From an uncultured Prevotella sp. (lineage in GTDB: Bacteria; Bacteroidota; Bacteroidia; Bacteroidales; Bacteroidaceae): 64,000 nt of DNA. Where the stretch lies: assembly GCA_900318395.1 (NCBI GenBank), contig ONKL01000015.1, forward strand, positions 23,805 to 87,804, in the 5' to 3' direction. The notes below the pieces were generated by a model, which saw only the letters and a program-made list of their open reading frames with translations, was not told where the DNA came from and ran no database searches. A program made the position numbers and the translations under genes. This document shows positions 6,331 to 58,395 of the stretch, in pieces (position 1 is the first letter of the stretch; each line of letters opens with the position of its first letter).

Positions 6331-6434
6331 CAAAGGTAGTGCAAATCGAGCGAAATGCAAAATAAATCGGGATTTATTTTCATTTCCGAGATGCAGCCTA
6401 TCTTCGAGCGAAGCTCAAAGTACGAATAAGTGAG
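6331..6434 (-). repeat. Promoter-bearing repeat, copy 1
   Basis: About 105 bp nearly identical (four differences) to 10327-10430. Read on the minus strand it ends in TTTG, a 19-nt spacer and TACCTTTG (box at 6331-6338), a full Bacteroidota promoter driving the flippase gene. It contains two small hairpins, around AAATAAATC and GAGCGAAGCTC. Confidence 0.85.
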
Positions 6435-10293: not shown

Positions 10294-10326
10294 CTTCTAT
10301 GTCAGTTTTTGCCGGACATCCGCCTG

Positions 10327-10430
10327 CAAAGATAGTGCAAATCGAGCGAAATGCAAAATAAATCCTGATTTATTTTCATTTCCGAGATGCAGCCTATCTT
10401 CGAGCGAAGCTCAAAGGTACGAATAAGTGA
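10327..10430 (-). repeat. Promoter-bearing repeat, copy 2
   Basis: Near-identical to 6331-6434. On the minus strand it ends in TTTG, a 19-nt spacer and TATCTTTG (box 10327-10334), about 33 bp before the MATE start. Confidence 0.85.
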
Positions 10431-10540: not shown

Positions 10541-10576
10541 ATTGCACTCCTGATTCATTTAGGGGCGCAATTTTTT
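10541..10576 (+). terminator. Lipoprotein-type terminator copy, plus strand
   Basis: ATTGCACTCCTGA faces TTAGGGGCGCAAT and is followed by six T. It resembles, in opposite orientation, the terminator after the lipoprotein gene at 11702. No plus-strand gene precedes it, so it looks like a relic. Confidence 0.45.
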
Positions 10577-10889
10577 CCTGCATTGCGCAGAAAGTGGCGA
10601 AATTGGAAAATTGGAGTAATGATACAAGGCAACAGAAAACTATTAATCAAAACAACCGACAATTCTTGTATAGAATATATATAGTCAATTTTTACCAATT
10701 TTGTATTAAAAATAGTAATTTCATGAATGGTTAATCTTTCAGAAAACTATATCGCACTTATTTCTTACTATGTGGCTCTTGTCAGATAACAAAAGACGCT
10801 TGCTGGGAATCATAAAAGTCGGCCACAATCGACTACCAGTTTTCCAATGACTGCTCGCTTAGTCGGGTACAGCATAATCTATTAAAGAC

Positions 10890-10919
10890 GGTTACATGGT
10901 TACAGCTGTAACCGTAACC
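10890..10919. repeat. Double GGTTAC palindrome
   Basis: GGTTAC, AT, GGTTAC, AGCT, GTAACC, GTAACC form a nearly perfect 30-bp palindrome. It could be an operator-like site or a hairpin; its function is unknown. Confidence 0.6.
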
Positions 10920-11080
10920 ATTTATGTATTAAGCATCGTTGGGGGGAGGATTAAGGCACACAGGGAAGAGGTTACAAGGAAACAGGGAGAAAGGCCGTAT
11001 CTATCCATCGTTTTCCTGTACCCAAACAATTGTTTGCCTAAACGCAAACGACTGTGCGCCTATACCCTATTTCAAGCGCT

Positions 11081-11212
11081 TCAAAAACATGTGTCTACTA
11101 CGCCTTGTAAATTAATCATTAATACGCTTGCCGATGGAACATGCTTACGTTCCTCTTCGTTAGAGAAGATTTTAAACGTATATCCTTTTTCCCTTTTGAA
11201 TACTGGACTCAT
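11081..11212 (-). pseudogene. Truncated DUF4160 gene
   Basis: The frame begins MSPVFKREKGYTFKIFSNEE and reaches RKHV, which matches the N-terminus of DUF4160 proteins (usually about 80-90 aa, often paired with DUF2442 and suspected to be toxin-antitoxin-like). After residue 25 the expected HVHV and acidic sequence is lost. The frame ends at residue 43 with unrelated sequence (PSASVLMINLQGVV). No DUF2442 partner follows. A good promoter box (11224-11231) remains. It is best read as a 3'-truncated remnant inside the palindromic locus. Confidence 0.55.
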
Positions 11213-11223
11213 AATTCTCGCTG

Positions 11224-11231
11224 CAAAGATA
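11224..11231 (-). promoter_or_regulatory. Promoter -7 box of the DUF4160 remnant
   Basis: TATCTTTG on the minus strand, 12 bp before the ATG at 11212. Confidence 0.5.
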
Positions 11232-11642
11232 AGGTTTTATTTCGAAAGTCCCAAACTTTAGAGGATTATTTTATTCAAGTTTCGCATTTGCTTAACTACT
11301 TATGAAAGTTGTATGAATAGTAGAACTTTCTGGAATTAATAGTAGAACTTTTTAGAATTAATAGTAAATAGTTCTGGAATTAATAGTAAAAAATCGGTCT
11401 ACGTACAGTAGTTAAGCCATTACTCTTTAGCTTGCATCAACCTCCAAACATTTGGCTTCACTACTTAACTACAAAGAAGTTGAGCAAATGCGAAACTTGA
11501 ATTATTATATAAAGAGCTGACTCGCTCTACGGTAGCTAGGCTGTCGTAGCCGACTAAGCGGGCAGTCATTGGAAAGCTGATCATCAAACGTAGCTGACCT
11601 CGTTATGACTCCCATTTTCCCACTTTCCTAGTAATGGGAAAC

Positions 11643-11679
11643 AAAAAATTGCGCCCCTGAAATAAATCAGGAGCGCAAT
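11643..11679 (-). terminator. Terminator of lipoprotein gene 1
   Basis: ATTGCGCTCCTGA pairs with TCAGGGGCGCAAT (minus-strand reading) and a T-run follows. It is close in sequence to the terminator after lipoprotein gene 2 at 19780. Confidence 0.75.
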
Positions 11680-11701
11680 GATTTTGGAGTATTATAAAAT
11701 A

Positions 11702-13411
11702 TTACTTGCTAACAATTGACCATCCCCAAGAGTTCTTATCCTTGTTGTAAGCTGAAACCCATCTGTATTTCTTACCATCAAGGTCGATAGTCAGATTCTT
11801 GCTATAGTTGGTTGTACACAAATTCTCAACAGCTGTAACATCCATAGCCTTGTCATTGTACTTGCAACCTGCGAAAGCGATTGTCACGTCAATGTCGTCA
11901 CCAGTCTGCTCATAAAGCGGAGTAGACGACACGAGCCACCAGTAACCACGACTACCTGTTGGGTCAAGTTCCATGATAGAAGCTGGAATTTCACTCTTAG
12001 ATACCCATCCGGAAACAGTTCCTGTGGTAATATCTGTCAGATACTGATAGTAGTCACGATTAACCTGATTTCCATTTGCATCGAGAATCGGAGTAAGGTT
12101 CATAACCTTCCACAGATTTACATCAGACGGAGCTGTAAATGCAACATTATTAAATGAGAATGTTGATACAGCTGCAGGAGCGGCAACATTAACATATCCA
12201 TCAAGAGTTACATCTTTGAGTGAAGAAGGACCAAACACATAAATGTAGTTTTCGGTAAGTGTAGGAACTGAAGCTGCGGTACTCTTTGTAACCTTAGCAT
12301 TTGTAAAGATGTCAGAGTAAATATACAGCTCAGAATAATTATCTGTATAAGTTACTCCATTTTGTGTATAAGAACTTGACCACCAATTCGTAGAAGATAC
12401 TGCAATCTGCTTATCAGCAGCAGCACCAACAATACTTGTTACGTTGGTCAAACCATCATAAGTAACGAATTCAACAGCAGAGCCAGCACCAAGACCGATG
12501 ATCTCAGAAACATACGGTTTCTGGTTGTTCTTACCATTATCAGAACCTGCAGAGTTGAAAAGAGTAACCTTCTTGCCTCCTGCAATATAAAGTTTCTCAA
12601 TTGCACCGCCCTTATAGCCATCGGCATCAATAGCCAAATCGGCAGTTGCAACAAAGCTCTTTACACGATACTGACCCCATGTGGGCAGTGAACCATCTAC
12701 AACATAGCCCTTATCTGTAGGCATTGTGATACCTGTAGCAATCTCAAGTGCATTAATAGCACCTTCAACCTTTATGAAGTTTGTAGGAGAAGCAGAAGCA
12801 TAATTGAAAATAGTAAGACCAGACTTGATTGTTACAGGCTTCTGCTGACCAGCTGCGTTAGCCAATGTGAAGCGACTGATTGTGGCAGAACCACCGAGGT
12901 CAACGATAGCCTTAGTATTTGTCAGATCGAATGCGAACTCGTCAGCAGGCAGATTGATAGTAACCACCTTGTCATTGTTTGCAGGTACGTTGAAATGCAG
13001 AACGTTCTTCTTTTCTGCAAATCCATTCAACAAATTAACAGTGACAGTCTTGCCATCAAGCTCAGCAGGAATTGTCATAGTAAGATCTTTAACGCTTGCA
13101 TCTTCGGCGAGTTTCATACTACCAGTCTGAACATCGATAGTAAAGCTAGACTTATCAGTTACCTTTGCTTTCAAGTCATCTTTGCTAAGCCCTTTAATCC
13201 AACTTGCAAACTGTGCATCGAAGTCAGAAGGCTTAACCACGCGAATTGTAACATCTGCTGTACCAGTAACAACACCTGGCTGAACTGGTTTTGATGTGTT
13301 GTACGGATCATTAGGATCGACCTCAGTAGTGTTCTTACATGAAGTCATACCCATGGCTACAAGCAGAGCTAAGCCTGCAAGAGCTTTCCATGAAAATAGC
13401 TTTTTGTTCAT
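11702..13411 (-). CDS. Lipoprotein 1, leader shared with lipoprotein 2
   Basis: A 569-aa exported lipoprotein of unknown function. The leader MNKKLFSWKALAGLALLVAM ends in a lipobox (GMTSC) with Cys25 as the lipidated residue. It is followed by a Pro/Thr linker (VDPNDPYNTSKP) that is nearly identical in the divergent gene at 18186. The body is Ser/Thr/Asn-rich and low in Cys, with beta-strand-like segments. The two proteins share only this leader, a general composition and a short C-terminal W-G-[WY] motif. It is likely surface or periplasm-exposed. A clear promoter (13500-13507) and a strong terminator make it a single-gene unit. I recognise no named domain. Confidence 0.8.
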   Translation of the reverse strand: MNKKLFSWKALAGLALLVAMGMTSCKNTTEVDPNDPYNTSKPVQPGVVTGTADVTIRVVKPSDFDAQFASWIKGLSKDDLKAKVTDKSSFTIDVQTGSMKLAEDASVKDLTMTIPAELDGKTVTVNLLNGFAEKKNVLHFNVPANNDKVVTINLPADEFAFDLTNTKAIVDLGGSATISRFTLANAAGQQKPVTIKSGLTIFNYASASPTNFIKVEGAINALEIATGITMPTDKGYVVDGSLPTWGQYRVKSFVATADLAIDADGYKGGAIEKLYIAGGKKVTLFNSAGSDNGKNNQKPYVSEIIGLGAGSAVEFVTYDGLTNVTSIVGAAADKQIAVSSTNWWSSSYTQNGVTYTDNYSELYIYSDIFTNAKVTKSTAASVPTLTENYIYVFGPSSLKDVTLDGYVNVAAPAAVSTFSFNNVAFTAPSDVNLWKVMNLTPILDANGNQVNRDYYQYLTDITTGTVSGWVSKSEIPASIMELDPTGSRGYWWLVSSTPLYEQTGDDIDVTIAFAGCKYNDKAMDVTAVENLCTTNYSKNLTIDLDGKKYRWVSAYNKDKNSWGWSIVSK

Positions 13412-13437
13412 AATGCTTTTAATTAAAATGATTAAAT
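13295..13437 (-). repeat. Inverted repeat, left copy (lipoprotein leader)
   Basis: About 140 bp covering the immediate upstream region and the first 39 codons of lipoprotein 1. It matches 18160-18302 in inverted orientation. From ATG to codon 26 there is one synonymous mismatch in 78 bases. Confidence 0.85.
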
Positions 13438-13499
13438 TACTTATACTTTAAATGTTTATTTTATACTTTCTTTACGCATTTTCGGTCTAAAAACCGCTG

Positions 13500-13507
13500 C
13501 AAAGATA
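13500..13507 (-). promoter_or_regulatory. Promoter -7 box of lipoprotein 1
   Basis: TATCTTTG on the minus strand about 90 bp upstream of the start. A weaker second box, TAATTTTG, lies at about 13659-13666. The rest of the AT-rich 13412-13740 gap holds nothing else I can name. Confidence 0.6.
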
Positions 13508-13740
13508 GGTATTATTCATGTAACCTCCAAACTTTTAAGCATTTTTTTTTCATTTTAGTTGAAATTTTTGCCTTTTTAGGGGCAATCATGCTGTTTTTTC
13601 GAAGAATTCCACTCAAATTTACCATTCTCGCAGTTCATTACGTTTGTAAAATCAGTGCAAAATTAGATAAAAAATCTAAAACCTCCAAATTTTTTCCTAA
13701 TTTTTTTAAGATTTACCCTCATTTTTAAGATTTCAAGCCC

Positions 13741-14613
13741 CTATATATATAATAAGGTGTAGATATAAACCGCAGCTGCCGGTATGGCCAAGAGAGAAGA
13801 GTCGAAACGATCGAGCATGCCTCCATGGCCTGGCAGGACGTTTCCGCTGTCTTTAATACCCAGGGTGCGCTTGAAGAGCGACTCTATCAGATCGCCCCAG
13901 GTTCCAAACACCACAATCACCAATCCAAGACCTGCCCACTGGAGAGATGAGAAGTGGGGAGCGAGGAATGAGAAGTCAGGAGTGAGGAGTGAGATTTGTT
14001 CTAACAGGTAGGGGATTGACGCTGCGACGAGCATCACGAGAATGCCTCCGCCGATGCTGCCCTCCCAGCTCTTGCCTGGAGAGATACGGGGGAAGAGCTT
14101 GTGCTTGCCCAACAACGAACCGCAGATATAGGCACCTGCATCGTTGATCCAGAGGAATACGAACATGCAGAGTGGGAGCACGGGATCGTAGACCACTTCG
14201 TTCTCTGGTGTCAGATGGAAGGCGAGCGCATTGAGCAGCGAGAAGGGCAGTGCGATGTAGAGCTGTGACATCATCGTGTAGGCCCAGTCGTGAATGGGAT
14301 CCTCGTGCTTCAGATAGAGTTCGGCCACCATCAGATAGATGATGGAGATGAGATAAGGGATGAAAACGCCTGAGGGCGCCAGTTCGCTGCAGAATCCAGC
14401 CATCGCGAAGAACAGGTAGACGCCTGTGATGGTGGTGATCATGCGATTGACAGTGACCCGAGGCCTGTCGTTGACAAGTCGCGTAAACTCCCAGATGGTC
14501 ATTCCCGAGACGAGGGCGAAGAGCAGGATCATCGTCTCTGCCCTCAGGAAACTGGCCACGATAACAGCCACGAAGATGATGGCTGTGATAGTTCTTACAA
14601 TGAAATTATTCAT
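13741..14613 (-). CDS. cdsA: Phosphatidate cytidylyltransferase
   Basis: A 290-aa inner-membrane enzyme making CDP-diacylglycerol from phosphatidate and CTP, the entry point to phospholipid synthesis. Multiple helices are followed by the family signature SLFKRTLGIKDSG and LPGHGGMLDRFDS near the C-terminus. Start chosen at MNNFIVRT (14613), which overlaps the ftsH stop by 8 bp. A longer frame from 14736 would lie inside ftsH. A loop before the signature (TPDFSFLAPHFSS) is encoded by seven heptamers (13949-13997) and appears to be a repeat insertion tolerated between helices. It is the third gene of the rsfS-ftsH-cdsA operon. Confidence 0.93.
   Translation of the reverse strand: MNNFIVRTITAIIFVAVIVASFLRAETMILLFALVSGMTIWEFTRLVNDRPRVTVNRMITTITGVYLFFAMAGFCSELAPSGVFIPYLISIIYLMVAELYLKHEDPIHDWAYTMMSQLYIALPFSLLNALAFHLTPENEVVYDPVLPLCMFVFLWINDAGAYICGSLLGKHKLFPRISPGKSWEGSIGGGILVMLVAASIPYLLEQISLLTPDFSFLAPHFSSLQWAGLGLVIVVFGTWGDLIESLFKRTLGIKDSGNVLPGHGGMLDRFDSSLLAIPAAAVYIYTLLYI
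13949..13997. repeat. Heptamer array inside cdsA
   Basis: Seven in-register units: GAGAAGT, GGGGAGC, GAGGAAT, GAGAAGT, CAGGAGT, GAGGAGT, GAGATTT. They are translated on the minus strand as part of a CdsA loop. Confidence 0.7.
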
Positions 14614-16690
14614 CTTTTGCCTCCTTTTCTTCTGGTTTGTCTGTGTCCGTAGAAGCTGGCAGACCTTCGCCTGCAGCCTTTGCTGCGGCCTCAGCCTCGA
14701 GTTCCTTGGCGCGCTCTTCAGCCATACGCTCAGCATCGGCCCTCATCTGGGCCTCGAGCAGTTCCTCGGCGCGAGAGGTCCAAGGACGCTTGCCAAAGAT
14801 CTTCTCGACATCCTCAGCGAAGATAACCTCACGATCCACGAGCAACTGTGCCAACTGAGCATGACCCTCCTGATGCTCTGTCAGAATCTGCTTGGCGCGC
14901 TCATACTGCTCATTGATCATGCGCAGCACCTCGTCGTCCATAATCTTAGCTGTAGTCTCCGAGTAAGGCTTCTGGAACTGATACTCCGCATTGTTATAGT
15001 AGCACACGTTGGGCAGCTTCTCGCTCATGCCAGCAAAGGCAATCATGCCGTATGCCTGCTTGGTGACACGCTCCAAGTCGTTCATCGCGCCAGTAGAGAT
15101 ATGTCCCACGAAGAGTTCCTCAGCAGCGCGACCTCCCAAGAGCGAGCACATTTCGTCGAGCATAGCCTCCTTGGTCTGAAGTACGCGCTCCTCTGGCAGA
15201 TACCAGGCTGCACCAAGCGCCTGACCACGAGGCACGATGCTTACCTTCACCAGCGGATTGGCAAACTCCGTGAACCACGAGATCGTGGCGTGACCAGCCT
15301 CGTGGATAGCGATGGAGCGCTTCTCGGCCTGTGTCATCACCTTGGTCTTCTTCTCCAGACCTCCGATGATACGGTCTACGGCATCGAGGAAGTCCTGCTT
15401 CTTCACTGTCTGCGAGTTATGGCGCGCAGCGATCAGGGCTGCCTCGTTACATACATTGGCGATATCTGCACCAGAGAATCCTGGTGTCTGACGGGCGAGG
15501 AAGTCGATGTCTACGCTGTCGTCTGTTTTCACAGGCTTCAGATGCACCTTGAACACCTCCTTGCGCTCGTTAAGGTCAGGCAGATCGACGTGGATCTGGC
15601 GATCGAAACGTCCTGCACGCAGCAGGGCAGAGTCGAGCATATCAGCACGGTTCGTGGCTGCGAGGATAATCACACCTGAGTTCGTGCCAAAGCCGTCCAT
15701 CTCAGTGAGCAGGGCATTCAGCGTGTTCTCGCGCTCGTCATTGCCTCCCATCGCAGGGTTCTTCGAGCGGGCACGGCCCACAGCGTCGATCTCGTCGATG
15801 AAGATGATACAAGGACTCTTGGTCTTCGCCTGCTGGAAGAGGTCGCGAACACGAGAGGCGCCCACACCCACGAACATCTCGACGAAGTCGGAACCTGACA
15901 TCGAGAAGAAAGGTACGCCAGCCTCACCAGCCACAGCCTTAGCCAACAGCGTCTTACCAGTTCCTGGAGGACCAACGAGCAGAGCGCCCTTGGGAATCTT
16001 ACCTCCCAGCTCCGTGTACTTCTGAGGATTCTTCAGGAAGTCGACAATCTCCTGAATTTCCTGCTTGGCACCAGCCTGGCCTGCCACATCCTTGAACGTG
16101 ATACCCAGGTCGCCACCCTTCTCATACATCTTCGCCTTCGACTTGCCGACGCTGAAGACACCACCTCCGGCACCCATGCCGCCACCACCCATACGGCGCA
16201 TGAAGAAGATCCACAGCAGCACGATGATGAAGATGGGGAAGAGGTTGTAGAAGATCATGTTGAAGAAGTCGTTGTCCTTGTGGTTCTCGTACACGAAGTC
16301 GCCAGTGAAGATTTTATCCTCCTTGGCTTTATTGACAAACTCCTCGAGCTGATCGACAGAGCCGAACTCCACCTCGACGTATGGATCCTTGCCCGTCTGC
16401 TGCGCGCTCTGATGGAACACGTCGCGGATGTGCTCAGGCTTCACATACATCTTAATGTTGCCCTGATTCTTGTTGACGACGATTTTCTGGGCATAGCCGT
16501 GATTCACCATCTCCTTGAAGTCAGAGTAGGATGCCGTCTTGGCGATGCTGCTGTTCGAAGGACCTCCGCTCGAAAAGTAGAGCAGTCCCAGTGCGAGGAT
16601 GGCCAGGATGTAGATCCAGTTCATGTTGAACTTGGGCATATTCATCTTAGGCCCATTGCCACCTTTGTTGTTTATCTGATTATTATCCAT
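14606..16690 (-). CDS. ftsH: ATP-dependent zinc metalloprotease FtsH
   Basis: A 694-aa membrane-anchored AAA+ protease that degrades misfolded membrane proteins and short-lived regulators. Two N-terminal membrane helices (about 25-40 and 147-167) flank a periplasmic domain. The AAA module has Walker A GPPGTGKT (about 237), Walker B IIFIDEID and the SRH region with [20 protein letters not shown]. The zinc site HEAGH (about 461) defines the M41 protease. A basic/acidic low-complexity tail closes it. It is transcribed after rsfS, with a heptamer array in the 64-bp gap, and overlaps cdsA. Confidence 0.96.
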
Positions 16691-16695
16691 CTAGC

Positions 16696-16752
16696 TATTT
16701 ACGATTTACGTATTTACGATTTACATTCCACATTCCTCATTCCACATTCCAC
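16696..16752. repeat. Heptamer array between rsfS and ftsH
   Basis: ATTTACG units (one base out of register at 16710) are followed by ATTCCAC, ATTCCTC, ATTCCAC, ATTCCAC. The array ends two bases before the rsfS stop codon. Confidence 0.7.
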
Positions 16753-16754
16753 AA

Positions 16755-17114
16755 TTAATCTAAGTCTGGTATCCTCGTCAGTTTGGCATCATCCCAGAGG
16801 TGCTCCAGGTCATAATACTCTCTGACATCAGGCAGGAAGATATGCACCAGCACATCGCTATAGTCCATCGCCACCCACTGCGCATTCTCGAGACCCACCA
16901 CATGAGCAGGCTTCTCGTGCAGCTTCTCACGGGCAAAGTCGCCCACAGATTCAGCGATGGCCTCTACCTGCGAAGGCGAGTTGCCCTCACAGATGATGAA
17001 GTATTGGCAGATGGTGCCGTCTATCTGTGTGAGGTCGGCAACCACGATGTTGCGCCCCTTCTTCTCTTGGATCCCCTCCGTAATGATTTCGACTAGTGTC
17101 TTGTTTTGCTCCAT
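16755..17114 (-). CDS. rsfS: Ribosome silencing factor
   Basis: A 119-aa RsfS/Iojap-family protein. Typical landmarks are the N-terminal KGRNIVVADL, the segment CQYFIICEGNSPSQVEAIAES, and WVAMDYSDVLVHIFLPDVREYYDLEHLW. The family binds ribosomal protein uL14 and blocks subunit joining when nutrients are scarce. First gene of the rsfS-ftsH-cdsA operon. The start codon directly follows an AT-rich run, and the promoter box is at 17143-17150. Confidence 0.94.
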   Translation of the reverse strand: MEQNKTLVEIITEGIQEKKGRNIVVADLTQIDGTICQYFIICEGNSPSQVEAIAESVGDFAREKLHEKPAHVVGLENAQWVAMDYSDVLVHIFLPDVREYYDLEHLWDDAKLTRIPDLD

Positions 17115-17142
17115 TATATATATAATAAGGTATATTGGTCTG

Positions 17143-17150
17143 CAAAGGTA
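17143..17150 (-). promoter_or_regulatory. Promoter -7 box of the rsfS-ftsH-cdsA operon
   Basis: TACCTTTG on the minus strand, about 30 bp from the rsfS start. Confidence 0.6.
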
Positions 17151-17220
17151 CTGATAAAAGGTCGAATTACAAAAAAAAAGAGGAAAAATTGCACATTTTT
17201 ATAAATTTTCGCCCAAAAGT

Positions 17221-17251
17221 TTTGGAGATTCAAGAAAAAGTAGTACCTTTG
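17221..17251 (+). promoter_or_regulatory. Promoter of tRNA-Gln
   Basis: TTTG (17221-17224), a 19-nt spacer and TACCTTTG (17244-17251). Confidence 0.65.
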
Positions 17252-17284
17252 CACCCGCAATTCAAAAATTGCCGAACCTGAAAT

Positions 17285-17355
17285 TGGGGTATGGTGTAAT
17301 GGTAACACTACAGATTCTGGTCCTGTCATTCTTGGTTCGAGTCCGAGTACCCCAA
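17285..17355 (+). tRNA. tRNA-Gln (CTG anticodon)
   Basis: Cloverleaf by eye: acceptor TGGGGTA with TACCCCA, D arm GTGTAATGGTAACAC, anticodon loop TTCTGGT with anticodon CTG (codon CAG), T loop GGTTCGAGTCC. The U1-A72 pair is typical of tRNA-Gln. The last pair of the anticodon stem is A-C. The 3' CCA is not encoded. Confidence 0.9.
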
Positions 17356-17359
17356 CAAG

Positions 17360-17387
17360 AGAGCTTCCACAACGGAGGCTCTTTTTT
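17360..17387 (+). terminator. Terminator of tRNA-Gln
   Basis: AGAGCTTCC pairs with GGAGGCTCT (one G-U) and is followed by six T. Confidence 0.8.
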
Positions 17388-17403
17388 GTATATGAGGCCA
17401 GAA

Positions 17404-18069
17404 TCACGCTTCTGTGCATCCGCTTAATATATTCGTTGCAGCACGAACAGTCGCAGGATTGATGCGATAACGGCGTGCTAGCGAACCTACCTGATAACGT
17501 TTGGCCTTACTCCCCTTCAGCTTCTTGCGCAGATCCTCCATCAGTTTGGGGTATTTCTTCTCGTAATCCTCGAGCGTCATCCGATAGCCCGTCTTCCGCC
17601 CCACTTTTCCACCTTCAGCCCTGAACTTGTCGTAGCCCGACTTCATTCGAAATCGGATAGCCTCACGCTCCAGCTTGGCACAAGTCCCCAACGTTGCAAT
17701 CATAATCATCAGGAACGGGTGCTCCTCACCATCATTGTTGAAGATACTCAGCTGTTCCTTCTGGAAGTAGACATTCGTCTTGTGCTCTTTGCAGAATATG
17801 ATCGACTTCAGAATCTCGTCAATGTTACGCCCCAGGCGCGACAGTTCGCTACAGAGGATGGTACATTTGTGCTTCGTGGCATATTCGAGAGCATCCATCA
17901 AGGCAGGGCGCTCACTGTTTTTCTTGGCTCCAGAGATCTTCTCGGTGAAGATACGTTCAACGGAATAGTCGTTGCCATTAGCATACGCCTGCAGATCGAT
18001 AACCTGTCGATCCGTATCCTGGATTGCCGTTGAAACTCTGGCATAAATAATGCTTGCTTTAGTAGTCAT
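17404..18069 (-). CDS. Small serine recombinase (resolvase/invertase family)
   Basis: A 221-aa site-specific recombinase. The catalytic domain starts IIYARVST with the nucleophilic Ser, followed by DRQVIDLQAY, the ISGAKKNSERPAL region and the LSRLGRN motif with conserved arginines. A long helix E and a C-terminal helix-turn-helix (QVGSLARRYRINPATVRAA) follow. Size matches DNA invertases and resolvases such as the Bacteroides Mpi type, not the large serine integrases. Start taken at MTTKASII (18069) rather than the upstream Met at 18096. It has its own promoter. It lies 117 bp from the inverted lipoprotein leader, making that repeat pair a candidate target, although no crossover site has been identified. 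Confidence 0.9.
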   Translation of the reverse strand: MTTKASIIYARVSTAIQDTDRQVIDLQAYANGNDYSVERIFTEKISGAKKNSERPALMDALEYATKHKCTILCSELSRLGRNIDEILKSIIFCKEHKTNVYFQKEQLSIFNNDGEEHPFLMIMIATLGTCAKLEREAIRFRMKSGYDKFRAEGGKVGRKTGYRMTLEDYEKKYPKLMEDLRKKLKGSKAKRYQVGSLARRYRINPATVRAATNILSGCTEA

Positions 18070-18093
18070 AATGTAAGAAATTTTAATGTTTCG

Positions 18094-18101
18094 CAAAGAT
18101 A
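18094..18101 (-). promoter_or_regulatory. Promoter -7 box of the serine recombinase
   Basis: TATCTTTG on the minus strand, 25 bp before the start codon. I find no TAnnTTTG box in the plus direction between here and the lipoprotein 2 start. Confidence 0.55.
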
Positions 18102-18159
18102 CAAAAATAAGTCAATACATCATGTCAAAAAAATCGAAAAGTTTTCTATTCCGGAGATG

Positions 18160-18302
18160 ATTTAATTTTTTTAATTAAAAGCATTATGAACAAAAAGCTA
18201 TTTTCATGGAAAGCTCTTGCAGGCTTAGCTCTGCTCGTAGCCATGGGTATGACTTCATGTAAGCAAGGTACTGAGGTCGATCCTAATGATCCGTACAACA
18301 CA
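18160..18302 (+). repeat. Inverted repeat, right copy (lipoprotein leader)
   Basis: Partner of 13295-13437. Shared upstream TTTTAATTAAAAGCATT, shared leader codons and the VDPNDPYN linker codons at DNA level. The repeats face outward and enclose 4.7 kb. Confidence 0.85.
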
Positions 18303-19760
18303 ACGAAGCCTGCACAGCCTGGCACATCCACCAAGGGTGGTGACTTGGTATTTACTATCACCAAGACAGCAGATCTCGCTTCACTGTGGGCATCTTACGA
18401 TGCAACTAAGAAGGCTGAGCTGATGAAGAAGACTGAGCTGAACATTGTCATCAACTCTGGTTCTTATAAACTTGACGGTGGTGTGCTCACCCTTCCTGCA
18501 TTCTTCAACACTCCTGCTAACAGTGTTCTGAACCTTACTTTCAACGGTAACTTCCAGGATGCAGACAAGCAGCCTCTGAATCTTGACGCTTCAACAAACC
18601 TGAAAGGCGCAAAGGTTAACATCAAGCTTCCCGCTCAGGCATTTAACATGGGAATTGATGCTACTAACGTAGCAACAAACCTTACTTCTGATGGTGCAAC
18701 TCTTGGTGTACTTGCTGCTGCAGCAAATACAGAAAAGAACAACGCTCTGTCAATCAACAGCGGTGTAACAGTAAACGCCATTGATCTTCAGTCAACTGGA
18801 GCAATCTTGACAAACGGTGGTTCTATTAACGCTCTTATTGTTGATGCCAATCCTGTTTGCATCAATAAAAAGGGTTTCCAGATTGGTAATCAGGCAGTTT
18901 ACACCAACAACCTCATTATAGATGCTGCTGGCATTACAGTATCTAACGATAATGACACTCCACTTGGTAACATTGTTATCAACAAGGGTTGTGATGTAAC
19001 ATTTGGTTATATTGGTGCTACTATTGCTAGTGTTTCAGGTGCAACAAAGGCTTCTGAATGTAAATTTAACCTCAATTGGAACCAACTTAAGAAGATTGGT
19101 TCAGTGAAAAATGTTACTGTGACCAACAATGGAGGCTCTATCTATGTTGAAAATGACAGTTTCGATGGTGTAGTATTTGCTGAGAATGTAAACATTGCAA
19201 ATGGAGTTAAGTCATTCTCAAATGCTGAGGTAACAGGTGCTACTGTATGGTTCGACTATACAGCAGACAATCAGACTTTCACTTTCTCAAATGCTAAGTT
19301 TGCTGCTGGTACAACAGTCAATATCTGGGGTGGTATCTATGTGAGCACAAGTCCTTCAAAGACTACCTATCAGTGGGATATCGACAACAAGGTTTGGGTA
19401 GAGGTTACACCTGCCGCTCCTATCACAGCTGCTAACAAGGCTGATACTGGCATCGAGGTTTCTACAAATGACGTTTGGTACAACTCTGCAACAAGTCAGC
19501 TTGCTGGTGATCTGAGCAAGATTGGAGATCATAAGGTTGTTACACTTGTAAATGGTAATGGCACAACAGTATTACCAGAGAACTGCACACTCGTCTTTGA
19601 CAACAAGTGCGCATACGGAGGTGCTGCAATCATTGACAACAACATTAACAATTTGGTTGCAAATACTGCCAATGATCCAACGTACCTGACAGTTAAATCT
19701 GGTGATGACACCTACACCTACAGAAAAACCAACTGGGGTTACACACTTATTAAGAAGTAA
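18186..19760 (+). CDS. Lipoprotein 2, leader shared with lipoprotein 1
   Basis: A 524-aa lipoprotein of unknown function. The leader and lipobox are identical in amino acids to lipoprotein 1 (Cys25). The linker PNDPYNTTKPAQPG is nearly so, and the sequence then diverges completely. The body is rich in Asn, Thr and Val with repeating hydrophobic strands (for example INKGCDVTFGYIGATIASVSG), suggestive of a beta-rich surface protein. Both end in a Tyr/Trp-rich motif before the stop. The 115 bp upstream contains no recognisable promoter box, unlike lipoprotein 1. It is followed by a similar terminator. Confidence 0.8.
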   Translation: MNKKLFSWKALAGLALLVAMGMTSCKQGTEVDPNDPYNTTKPAQPGTSTKGGDLVFTITKTADLASLWASYDATKKAELMKKTELNIVINSGSYKLDGGVLTLPAFFNTPANSVLNLTFNGNFQDADKQPLNLDASTNLKGAKVNIKLPAQAFNMGIDATNVATNLTSDGATLGVLAAAANTEKNNALSINSGVTVNAIDLQSTGAILTNGGSINALIVDANPVCINKKGFQIGNQAVYTNNLIIDAAGITVSNDNDTPLGNIVINKGCDVTFGYIGATIASVSGATKASECKFNLNWNQLKKIGSVKNVTVTNNGGSIYVENDSFDGVVFAENVNIANGVKSFSNAEVTGATVWFDYTADNQTFTFSNAKFAAGTTVNIWGGIYVSTSPSKTTYQWDIDNKVWVEVTPAAPITAANKADTGIEVSTNDVWYNSATSQLAGDLSKIGDHKVVTLVNGNGTTVLPENCTLVFDNKCAYGGAAIIDNNINNLVANTANDPTYLTVKSGDDTYTYRKTNWGYTLIKK

Positions 19761-19779
19761 TCAATAACACTTTATAATC

Positions 19780-19816
19780 ATTGCGCCTCTGGTTCATACC
19801 AGGGGCGCAATCCTTA
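19780..19816 (+). terminator. Terminator of lipoprotein 2
   Basis: ATTGCGCCTCTGG (19780-19792) pairs with CCAGGGGCGCAAT (19799-19811), followed by a T-rich stretch. Related in sequence to the lipoprotein 1 terminator. Confidence 0.75.
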
Positions 19817-20143: not shown

Positions 20144-21349
20144 ATGAAAACAACAACAATTACAAGAAAATTAATGTCTGGTGCATTTGCACTGATGAGT
20201 GTTGTGTCAATGAGTTCGTGCCAAGGTTTGGTTGATGCTGTCCTAGGTCATGAAGACAATGCCTCAAGTGGTACCACTACTCCCACGACCGTACCAGGAA
20301 TCCCCAGTGATGCCAGTGCGAAGCCGAACCCAACACTGCCAGGAAGTCCAAACACTACTATTCCAAATCCTGGTAGTGAGGTGGTAACTAAAAGTGGTCA
20401 AACCGTTGTTAATTTCAACTTGACTGGTATTTTGGATCCTACACAGGCTGGAGGTTGGCTTAAACTCTACGGAACAGGTTCTAATATTCAGAATGTTTGG
20501 ATGTCGATTGATGGAAATGCAAAAGGTATTGCGGTTATTAACACAATCGATCAAAGTACAGTGACTTCTGCAGTTGATCTGGTTTTCCTTGTGGATAATT
20601 CTGGAAGCATGAGTGAAGAAGCAAATGCAGTTGCAGACGGTATCATTGACTGGTCTAAAAAGCTCTCCAAAACACTTGACATGAGATTTGGATGCGTTGG
20701 CTATTGGGGACCAATTACAGGCGGTATAAACATGACAACTATAGACAAGTTTGTAGATTTCCTCAATTATAATAATTCTAAAGGAACTCGTAGGACTGAA
20801 CATTTTGCTGAGGACGGGACAGATTGGTCAACTTTAAAACCTGCCTATTCTCCAACGTCTTCCATGGATGAGAACGGAGTAGCTGCTCTTCGTCTCGCAG
20901 ACGAGAACTTCAAATTCCGTTCAGGAGCTAATCGTGTATATGTAAACTTCACGGATGAGCCGATTTACCCACAAGGCGAGGCTAAATGGAGCACAGATTA
21001 TGTGAAGGAACCTGCAAATTGGCCTACCACAAAGGGTACAATTCATACTGTATTTAGTGATGAATATTATAAGAACTGGTCAGATGATCGTTGGACTCCA
21101 TTATATGAAGAAAAACCTTGGCTGCTTTCTGAATATACAGGAGGTACTACCAAGTTTGCCCCGTCTGATTTTTCTGGCGTAACTCTTGACGACCTACCTA
21201 TCACTGGTGCTCTGATGAATTCATACGTAATCAGTGTTACCAACGTAACAAGTCTTTTTGATGGTAAAGAACATATTGTTAAGATAACAATTCTGAATGC
21301 TGACGGAAGTATCCGTGCAGAGAAAGAGTTTGCCATGATCTTTAAATAA
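20144..21349 (+). CDS. VWA-domain lipoprotein
   Basis: A 401-aa lipoprotein. The signal peptide ends in SMSSC (Cys26). A Pro/Thr/Gly-rich linker (about 40-80) and a small beta domain follow, then a von Willebrand factor A domain from about residue 145. The MIDAS motif DNSGSMSEE is intact, so divalent-metal-dependent ligand binding is possible. A C-terminal beta-sandwich-like tail (ISVTNVTSLFDGKEHIVKI) closes the protein. Partner and function are unknown. It is a single-gene unit with its own promoter and a strong terminator. Confidence 0.85.
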   Translation: MKTTTITRKLMSGAFALMSVVSMSSCQGLVDAVLGHEDNASSGTTTPTTVPGIPSDASAKPNPTLPGSPNTTIPNPGSEVVTKSGQTVVNFNLTGILDPTQAGGWLKLYGTGSNIQNVWMSIDGNAKGIAVINTIDQSTVTSAVDLVFLVDNSGSMSEEANAVADGIIDWSKKLSKTLDMRFGCVGYWGPITGGINMTTIDKFVDFLNYNNSKGTRRTEHFAEDGTDWSTLKPAYSPTSSMDENGVAALRLADENFKFRSGANRVYVNFTDEPIYPQGEAKWSTDYVKEPANWPTTKGTIHTVFSDEYYKNWSDDRWTPLYEEKPWLLSEYTGGTTKFAPSDFSGVTLDDLPITGALMNSYVISVTNVTSLFDGKEHIVKITILNADGSIRAEKEFAMIFK

Positions 21350-58094: not shown

Positions 58095-58395
58095 TGGCGA
58101 CACGGCGACATGGCGACAGGAAGCAAAAACGAATTTGCGACATTGCGACAATGCGACAATTGAATAATTGTTCAAAAGGACAATGCGACACGAGCATACA
58201 ATTATTTAACCACTCATTCTATATTAAATTATATATATTATATATTATATTATAATATAATATATAATATATATAATTATTAATAAGAGTATTTGTCGCT
58301 AAATGGTAGTCTTTTTGTTCCTTCGTGTCGTATTGTCGCCATGTCGCCAAATCAAGGAAACACAAATTGTCGCATTGTCGCAATGTCGCAACATG
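58093..58395. repeat. Octamer arrays flanking an AT palindrome
   Basis: On the left GGCGACA and TGCGACA 8-nt units (three each, 58098-58170). On the right the opposite strand versions TGTCGCC and TTGTCGCA (58325-58395). They flank the palindrome at 58227-58278. Nothing coding is evident here. Confidence 0.75.
58227..58278. repeat. Perfect 52-bp A/T-only palindrome
   Basis: Every base from 58227 to 58278 is complementary to its mirror position. The tract is pure A and T, beginning AATTATATATATTATA. It would extrude readily as a cruciform. Confidence 0.9.

Follow-up and report, generated by a model that had tools for sequence, protein, structure and literature searches.

A possible promoter switch between two lipoprotein cassettes in an uncultured Prevotella

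Start-codon shufflons and the Prevotella locus

In the available parts of the papers that describe it, the intergenic shufflon of Bacteroides fragilis known as 'region EE' has inverted repeats lying over the start codons of ragA/susC paralogues, and the inversion of large segments places alternative outer-membrane protein genes under one promoter (PMC5729914, PMC3090145). The present work deals with a locus of an uncultured Prevotella that appears to be built on a comparable plan: two divergent genes for predicted lipoproteins, LIP1 and LIP2, whose nearly identical start regions form an inverted repeat around a segment of 4.7 kb that carries housekeeping genes and a small serine recombinase (REC). 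The locus lies in a stretch of 64,000 nucleotides, hereafter the window, taken from contig ONKL01000015.1 of assembly GCA_900318395.1 (positions 23,805 to 87,804). A literature search of titles and the beginnings of abstracts returned, among the matches listed, no paper on a Prevotella locus of this kind.

As far as the available text of those two papers goes, the start-codon shufflon of Bacteroides would be the nearest known kind of system, and the resemblance to the B. fragilis version seems close. In both cases the inverted repeats overlap the start codons of paralogues (here putative surface proteins), and one position bears a promoter and the others lack one, in our case judged by consensus. 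The two differ in that region EE involves pairs of the ragA/susC type and a promoter that is itself invertible, whereas the genes discussed here encode lipoproteins and the promoter stands beside cdsA; in addition, the Prevotella segment includes a serine recombinase and housekeeping genes, and its inversion is a prediction from sequence.

A second comparison is offered by the sap locus of Campylobacter fetus, in which silent and expressed homologues have conserved 5' ends and a unique promoter resides on an invertible segment, several kb long and containing other genes, between oppositely oriented genes. A unique promoter within a segment bounded by opposed homologues with a conserved 5' end is also what is found here; the recombinases are different, and the likeness drawn here is one of arrangement. 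The same can be said, on the accessible text, of the vpma locus of Mycoplasma agalactiae, whose lipoprotein genes are switched on by the addition of a promoter through site-specific inversion: there the recombinase is Xer1 (PMC5634654), whereas here it would be a serine recombinase. Another phase-variable lipoprotein, the S-layer protein BT1927 of Bacteroides thetaiotaomicron, has, in the portion of the source available, an invertible promoter flanked by repeats that flips before its own gene (PMC12548429), whereas here a gene-bearing segment of 4.7 kb would swap promoters between two genes. The Prevotella locus is not a short invertible promoter segment of that type: its arms enclose 4722 nt and five genes, and they lie over two start codons.

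One promoter and two outward-facing genes

The window assembly (G000) is fragmented, with 132 contigs, and 89.7% complete; in it the shared start region, or leader, was found in two copies only, those of LIP1 and LIP2. The arms of the inverted repeat (Table 1) are 163 nt long and 91% complementary, and each reaches from -26 to +137 of its gene, that is, from 26 bases 5' of the ATG to the linker. Over the first 78 coding bases the leaders of the two genes differ at a single position in codon 17, which reads CTC followed by AAGCAAGGT in LIP2 and CTT followed by AAGAACACT in LIP1, and upstream of the ATG the cdsA side carries CATTTTAATTAAAAG and the REC side TTTTTTTAATTAAAAG. The five genes between the arms are cdsA, ftsH, rsfS, tRNA-Gln(CTG) and REC. 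An earlier note on this DNA had reported the outward-facing repeat (at about 140 bp), its one mismatch, a serine recombinase lying inside at 117 bp and a recognisable promoter, within the segment, for LIP1 only, and all of these observations hold. The other four genes of the segment went unmentioned there, and the view that the two proteins are unrelated beyond the linker proved wrong, as described below.

When genome contigs were searched with the 52-residue leader, five loci came to light in three Prevotella genomes, namely G339 (RGIG3308, from goat reticulum), G340 (Tb.RUG.396) and G341 (a bin of SRR11784292), and one further LIP gene is present in G025, of the same genus. The four matches in G339 correspond to three LIP genes (two of the matches being the ends of one junction), located beyond REC beside O21438, beyond cdsA, and after a DUF349 gene. 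One LIP gene each was found in G341 and G025, beyond cdsA, and one in G340, where the contig breaks off at the leader.

Promoters were scored by consensus, the strict Bacteroidota type being TTTG-N20-TATCTTTG. Such a promoter stands at -120 in all four cdsA-side copies (window LIP1, G339, G341 and G025) and in none of the three other scorable copies, even with one mismatch allowed (window LIP2 and the REC-side and DUF349-side copies of G339); G340 is unscorable because its contig ends first. For LIP2, no promoter within one mismatch was found across 250 bp upstream, and of the upstream sequence scanned for both window genes, only that of LIP1 contains a strict promoter, inside the segment. Transcription is predicted to start roughly 80-85 bases before the ATG, and at the cdsA side only. 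The four cdsA-side promoters are not independent events, because their upstream regions are orthologous, and the background in the 64-kb window (both strands) is 15 exact matches and 83 with up to one mismatch. When 241 bases of promoter plus leader were used as a query, 50 of 398 genomes of the genus were matched at E<=1e-6; promoter and leader were both covered only in G000, G025 and G396 (the last apparently the same as G341, given the same contig number and overlapping coordinates), and the remaining matches comprised 36-76 bases of the promoter part. The LIP system is rare in this wider sampling of the genus.

These features can be read as a promoter switch. The LIP genes would be cassettes that all begin with the dyad and the signal-peptide sequence and all finish in a terminator-like element, the site next to cdsA would be the one that carries the promoter, and recombination between the two outward-facing leaders would invert the 4.7 kb between them. 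The promoter would then come to stand before LIP2 and promoterless DNA from the REC side before LIP1, both proteins remaining intact. The crossover would probably fall in a 24-bp dyad, the last base of which is the A of the ATG. The probable enzyme would be REC, with its start codon 117 bases from that of LIP2; the alternative is that the two leaders undergo homologous recombination. The lipoprotein signal points to a surface location of the LIP proteins, and that a promoter of surface lipoproteins is switched by inversion at the leader is, in our judgement, a serious prospect that falls a little short of even.

Shared cassette ends and changing bodies

With the first 52 residues removed, the bodies of LIP1 and LIP2 align with a score of 149; shuffled sequences average 53.5 (sd 9.0), none of 300 shuffles reaches the observed value, and a profile built from seven other LIP bodies recovers LIP1 with an E of 2e-16; by these measures the two bodies are diverged paralogues. 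At the other end of the gene, a GC-rich terminator-like hairpin of one kind lies 3' of all eight LIP genes compared. The core motif of this hairpin occurs at three places only in the window (3' of LIP1, 3' of LIP2 and at 10560), and those LIP copies that no contig end interrupts turn alike from TTTTAATTAAAAGCATTATG onward. With a 24-bp dyad, a frozen signal-peptide sequence, a variable body and a shared hairpin, the LIP genes look like cassettes.

Between these ends the body changes. On the cdsA side, the LIP bodies of the window and G341 are 32% alike over 179 aa, the flanking cdsA and MATE proteins being 92% and 97% identical, and the bodies of G341 and G340 share 83% identity. In a search of 299 genomes LIP2 was matched in its own genome only, and LIP1 in three: its own, G025 and G333 (there by another part of a 1677-aa frame).

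Such turnover could be explained by the replacement of cassettes without a switch, in which the shared leader and the 3' hairpin serve as homology for recombination that swaps bodies into the promoter site (by gene conversion or transfer between strains), so that antigenic variation would arise over evolutionary time and no reversible inversion would take place. Both ends are indeed common to the LIP genes, G341 has a G340-like body where the window has a different one, blocks of zero synonymous change lie inside the G340 and G341 bodies among diverged patches, and the G339 leaders are, by eye, mosaic in the linker. The replacement of cassettes, however, has no need of the opposed orientation of the copies, of the dyad or of a REC gene inside the repeat, and most pairs of LIP genes have only about 40-60 bp in common at the 3' end. 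We consider this explanation improbable.

A frozen leader and a dyad fused to the start codon

The synonymous comparison covered seven leaders from four genomes, in which codons 1-25 amount to about 18 synonymous sites. Zero synonymous change was found in 15 of the 21 leader pairs, and one change in each of the six pairs that include LIP1. For two orthologous pairs between species, synonymous divergence is 0.00 in codons 1-25 and then 0.57 and 0.66 in codons 26-50, the freeze stopping at the lipobox cysteine. To the extent that the genes were extracted from the window, G339 and G341, synonymous differences between these genomes are 0.18-0.52 in cdsA, ftsH, rsfS and MATE and 0.34-0.71 in REC. 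The 125 bases 5' of the cdsA-side ATG are identical to those of the window at 125 of 125 positions in G341 and 124 of 125 in G339. RNA structure was considered as a reason for the frozen leader and set aside: folding is ordinary in the two stretches evaluated (z -0.06 and -0.15). Codon 22 is ATG in both window leaders and TTG in the five leaders of G339, G340 and G341, and because both window copies carry ATG, it is suggested that they exchanged sequence within the lineage.

Each cassette starts with the dyad TAATNNTTTTAATTAAAANNATTA, whose last base is the A of the ATG. Both window dyads are symmetric at 20 of 24 positions, a level reached by none of 254 other gene starts, so a chance likeness to ordinary AT-rich start regions is unlikely for the copies of this symmetry. 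In the eight genomes scanned, with a Y allowed at one position of the pattern to take in the third G339 copy, exact sites number two in G000, three in G339, one in G025 and one in G341, and all seven are LIP starts; the exact dyad is absent from G020, G031, G013 and G340, in the last of which the LIP contig is cut inside the dyad. As the pattern was derived from these very sites, the test speaks for exclusivity and not for discovery. Matches of about 30 bases to the leader also precede unrelated-looking genes in G031 and G044, and start regions of Bacteroidota are, in the part of the source available, of low GC (PMC3155529), so that the likeness of leader and dyad may be partly generic. The match of G341 to the region upstream of REC stops within the left half of the dyad (window 18171), which fits a break at that point and also a simple deletion or insertion.

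The recombinase within the segment

REC has a Resolvase catalytic domain (Pfam E 1.3e-28) together with the motifs YARVS and RLGR, which we take to be active-site motifs of small serine recombinases, and by domain and motifs it belongs to that group (resolvase/invertase). If the ATG at 18069 is taken as its start (the longest frame begins with TTG at 18096), 117 bases separate REC from the ATG of LIP2 and 91 separate it from the repeat arm. The gene is intact and under purifying selection (dN/dS 0.05-0.06), a protein search of the window assembly at E<=0.001 recovered no other REC, and in both genomes that bear the repeat (window and G339) REC lies inside it. REC shares the catalytic domain of the small serine invertases of the Mpi/Hin type, and its score is far below the Mpi cut-off; its best PHROGs match is called 'DNA invertase', and the solved structures that match it best are the Sin and gamma-delta resolvases, DNA invertases ranking below them. 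We put REC forward tentatively as the enzyme of the switch, with rather more doubt than confidence.

In G341 (L133 on contig C6, about 11021-12820, and the left part of L101), tRNA-Gln and REC are seemingly separated by an inserted element that has an integrase-like frame (by eye). Homology to the window restarts within the 3' end of tRNA-Gln, the pattern of an island that uses a tRNA gene as its attachment site.

Orientation of the block in relatives

With O21438 and TonB as the reference, the window and G025 have the tRNA-Gln end of the block toward O21438 and the cdsA end toward LIP; G339 and G341 would have the same orientation, read across contig ends (through a 141-base overlap in G339 and a tRNA remnant beside REC in G341). 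In G020, G031 and G013 cdsA adjoins O21438, no LIP gene is found there, and the cdsA–tRNA-Gln block runs the opposite way to that of the window. In a tree built on seven flanking genes, of which four were used for G013, these three genomes group apart with a support of 100 and G025 falls on the window side. A tree of FtsH, in which G020 falls within the window clade, could be taken for repeated flipping; it was not relied on, since the flank-gene tree groups G020 with G031 and G013. The ftsH of G020 (L077) is 94% identical to that of the window, though most flanking genes of G020 are more distant than those of G025, and ftsH and rsfS of G020 may have recombined inside the block. A second inversion, of 565 bp beside LIP-type hairpins, distinguishes the window from G341.

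The G339 contig that ends at the REC-side leader overlaps the O21438-side LIP contig by exactly 141 bases, and the longest exact stretch of that leader in any other copy assembled there is 119. A k of 141 is a common maximum in de Bruijn assembly. Because the overlap is longer than the 119 shared bases, it suggests a branch in the assembly graph, with some reads joining the leader elsewhere; the branch may come from inversion or from a second strain. Contigs C126 and C75 of G339 likewise share 141 bases, downstream of two LIP genes, which looks like another repeat. Contig breaks at leaders were rejected as proof of inversion for G340, whose assembly is presumably a short-k one that breaks at any repeat, and the overlap in G339 is suggestive only. 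On C75 (L110:2748-4664) a gene that resembles dnaK by eye adjoins MATE where the window has LIP1, so the MATE flank of G339 is also rearranged.

Arguments for and against a switch

The inversion switch that the earlier note had proposed stands in part. The promoter asymmetry, the exclusive dyad, the base shared at codon 22, the turnover of bodies, the intact REC and the evolutionary inversion of the cdsA–tRNA block speak for it; the single orientation of the repeat and a REC without a second leader in G341 do not. The other option raised there, that the shared leader is a cassette boundary, is supported because the eight LIP genes compared also share the terminator-like hairpin.

Several observations weigh against the switch. 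The replaced LIP bodies are not explained by inversion alone. Conservation upstream of the cdsA-side ATG extends to the preceding 205 intergenic columns, of which 200 are conserved in G341 and 195 in G339 (95-98%). The third G339 dyad is symmetric at only 18 of 24 positions, a level met by 6 of the 254 other starts, and a scan with one mismatch allowed adds one further site elsewhere in G000. The best NCBIfam match of REC is the Mpi family, at 79.2 bits against an equivalog cut-off of 272, so that REC is not assigned to it, and synonymous divergence of REC between the window and G339 is 0.71 against 0.35-0.50 for its neighbours; because of this low score and higher divergence, REC may have had another history than the locus. 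The inverted repeat is present in two genomes (window and G339), in the same orientation in both and in G339 by contig overlap only, and the 141-base overlap may reflect a mixture of strains. In view of the split in the flank tree, one old inversion of the cdsA–tRNA block suffices.

These points bear on another explanation, in which LIP1 and LIP2 are static paralogues: ordinary lipoprotein duplicates with a start region kept constant by selection on expression and secretion and by occasional gene conversion. On this view REC would be a gene left behind by an island next to tRNA-Gln, and the core block would have inverted once, long ago. Ten loci of REC relatives were mapped out of 34 places listed outside the locus itself; integrase-like frames, read by eye, lie within about 6 kb at seven of the ten and a tRNA gene at four, and no long inverted repeat was found at the seven loci scanned for one. 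G341 has the insertion between tRNA-Gln and REC, and retains REC (about 95% identical) beside O21438 with no leader adjoining and one leader copy only. The orientation of the core block, moreover, is the same in the window, in G025 (directly) and in G339 and G341 (across contig ends), and the flank tree requires one inversion only. Static paralogues are harder to reconcile with codons 1-25 that are synonymously frozen across species despite ordinary RNA folding and a freeze that stops at codon 25, with exact dyads found only at LIP starts, with very different bodies held by close relatives at one site, and with a promoter at the cdsA-side site only. We regard this account as unlikely, if not strongly so.

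In its fullest form, the preferred reading is a reversible switch of rumen Prevotella in which REC would invert a housekeeping segment (ftsH, cdsA, rsfS and tRNA-Gln) at a 24-bp site that runs into the start codon, one promoter alternating between two lipoprotein cassettes and in relatives perhaps three; taken with all of its parts, this version is doubtful. If it is true, phase variation in rumen Prevotella acts through a segment with core cell-envelope and translation genes, whose orientation would be linked to changes of the surface. In that case the start-codon dyad, together with the frozen signal-peptide DNA, would form a compact, testable recombination site, and the LIP proteins would be candidate variable surface antigens facing phage or host.

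Coordinates and neighbouring features

Table 1. Features of the LIP1–LIP2 locus, in window coordinates.
Feature	Position	Strand	Basis or remark
565-bp stretch beside LIP-type hairpins, inverted between window and G341	10541..11105	.	blastn; hairpin motif at 10560
Terminator-like hairpin of LIP1, 3' cassette boundary	11643..11683	.	similar hairpins 3' of 8/8 LIP genes compared
LIP1, lipoprotein cassette at the promoter-bearing cdsA-side site	11702..13411	-	ORF 569 aa; no Pfam family; same family as LIP2
Left inverted-repeat arm, LIP1 leader	13275..13437	-	complementary to 18160-18322
24-bp imperfect dyad TAATNNTTTTAATTAAAANNATTA over LIP1 ATG, candidate crossover site	13411..13434	.	symmetry 20/24
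LIP1 promoter TTTG-N20-TATCTTTG, within segment	13500..13531	-	consensus scan
cdsA, segment passenger	13741..14616	-	Pfam CTP_transf_1
ftsH, segment passenger	14606..16690	-	Pfam Peptidase_M41, AAA, FtsH_ext
rsfS, segment passenger	16755..17114	-	Pfam RsfS
tRNA-Gln(CTG), segment passenger	17285..17356	+	ARAGORN; Rfam RF00005
REC, small serine recombinase, candidate invertase	17404..18069	-	Pfam Resolvase 1.3e-28; YARVS and RLGR motifs; dN/dS 0.05-0.06
Right inverted-repeat arm, LIP2 leader	18160..18322	+	complementary to left arm
24-bp imperfect dyad over LIP2 ATG	18163..18186	.	symmetry 20/24
LIP2, lipoprotein cassette without recognisable promoter	18186..19760	+	ORF 524 aa; mostly beta model, mean pLDDT 82.8
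Terminator-like hairpin of LIP2, 3' cassette boundary	19780..19811	.	shared hairpin motif

Downstream of LIP2, at 20144-21349, there is a lipoprotein-like gene with its own strict promoter and a weak, sub-cut-off match to von Willebrand A; two such von Willebrand A-like genes lie beside the LIP gene of G340 (L098:2223-4936), where the neighbour is DUF349 and not O21438. Near the DUF349 gene of G341 (contig C19, L111:8291-12256), a frame of 1321 aa resembles, by eye, a Cas12a-type nuclease.

Elsewhere in the window, a perfect AT palindrome of 24 bases, TATATTATATTATAATATAATATA, occupies 58241-58264, and a near-identical pair of hairpins (CAAAATAAATC..GATTTATTTTC) is found at 6358 and 10354. Sequence around 10324-10430 recurs at many places in G339, G340 and G341, so the hairpin pair is probably a dispersed small repeat. 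Upstream of the window on the same contig (L108:5085-10065), a group of frames that includes a 1195-aa ATPase-like protein resembles, by eye, a defence operon of the Wadjet type (Jet).

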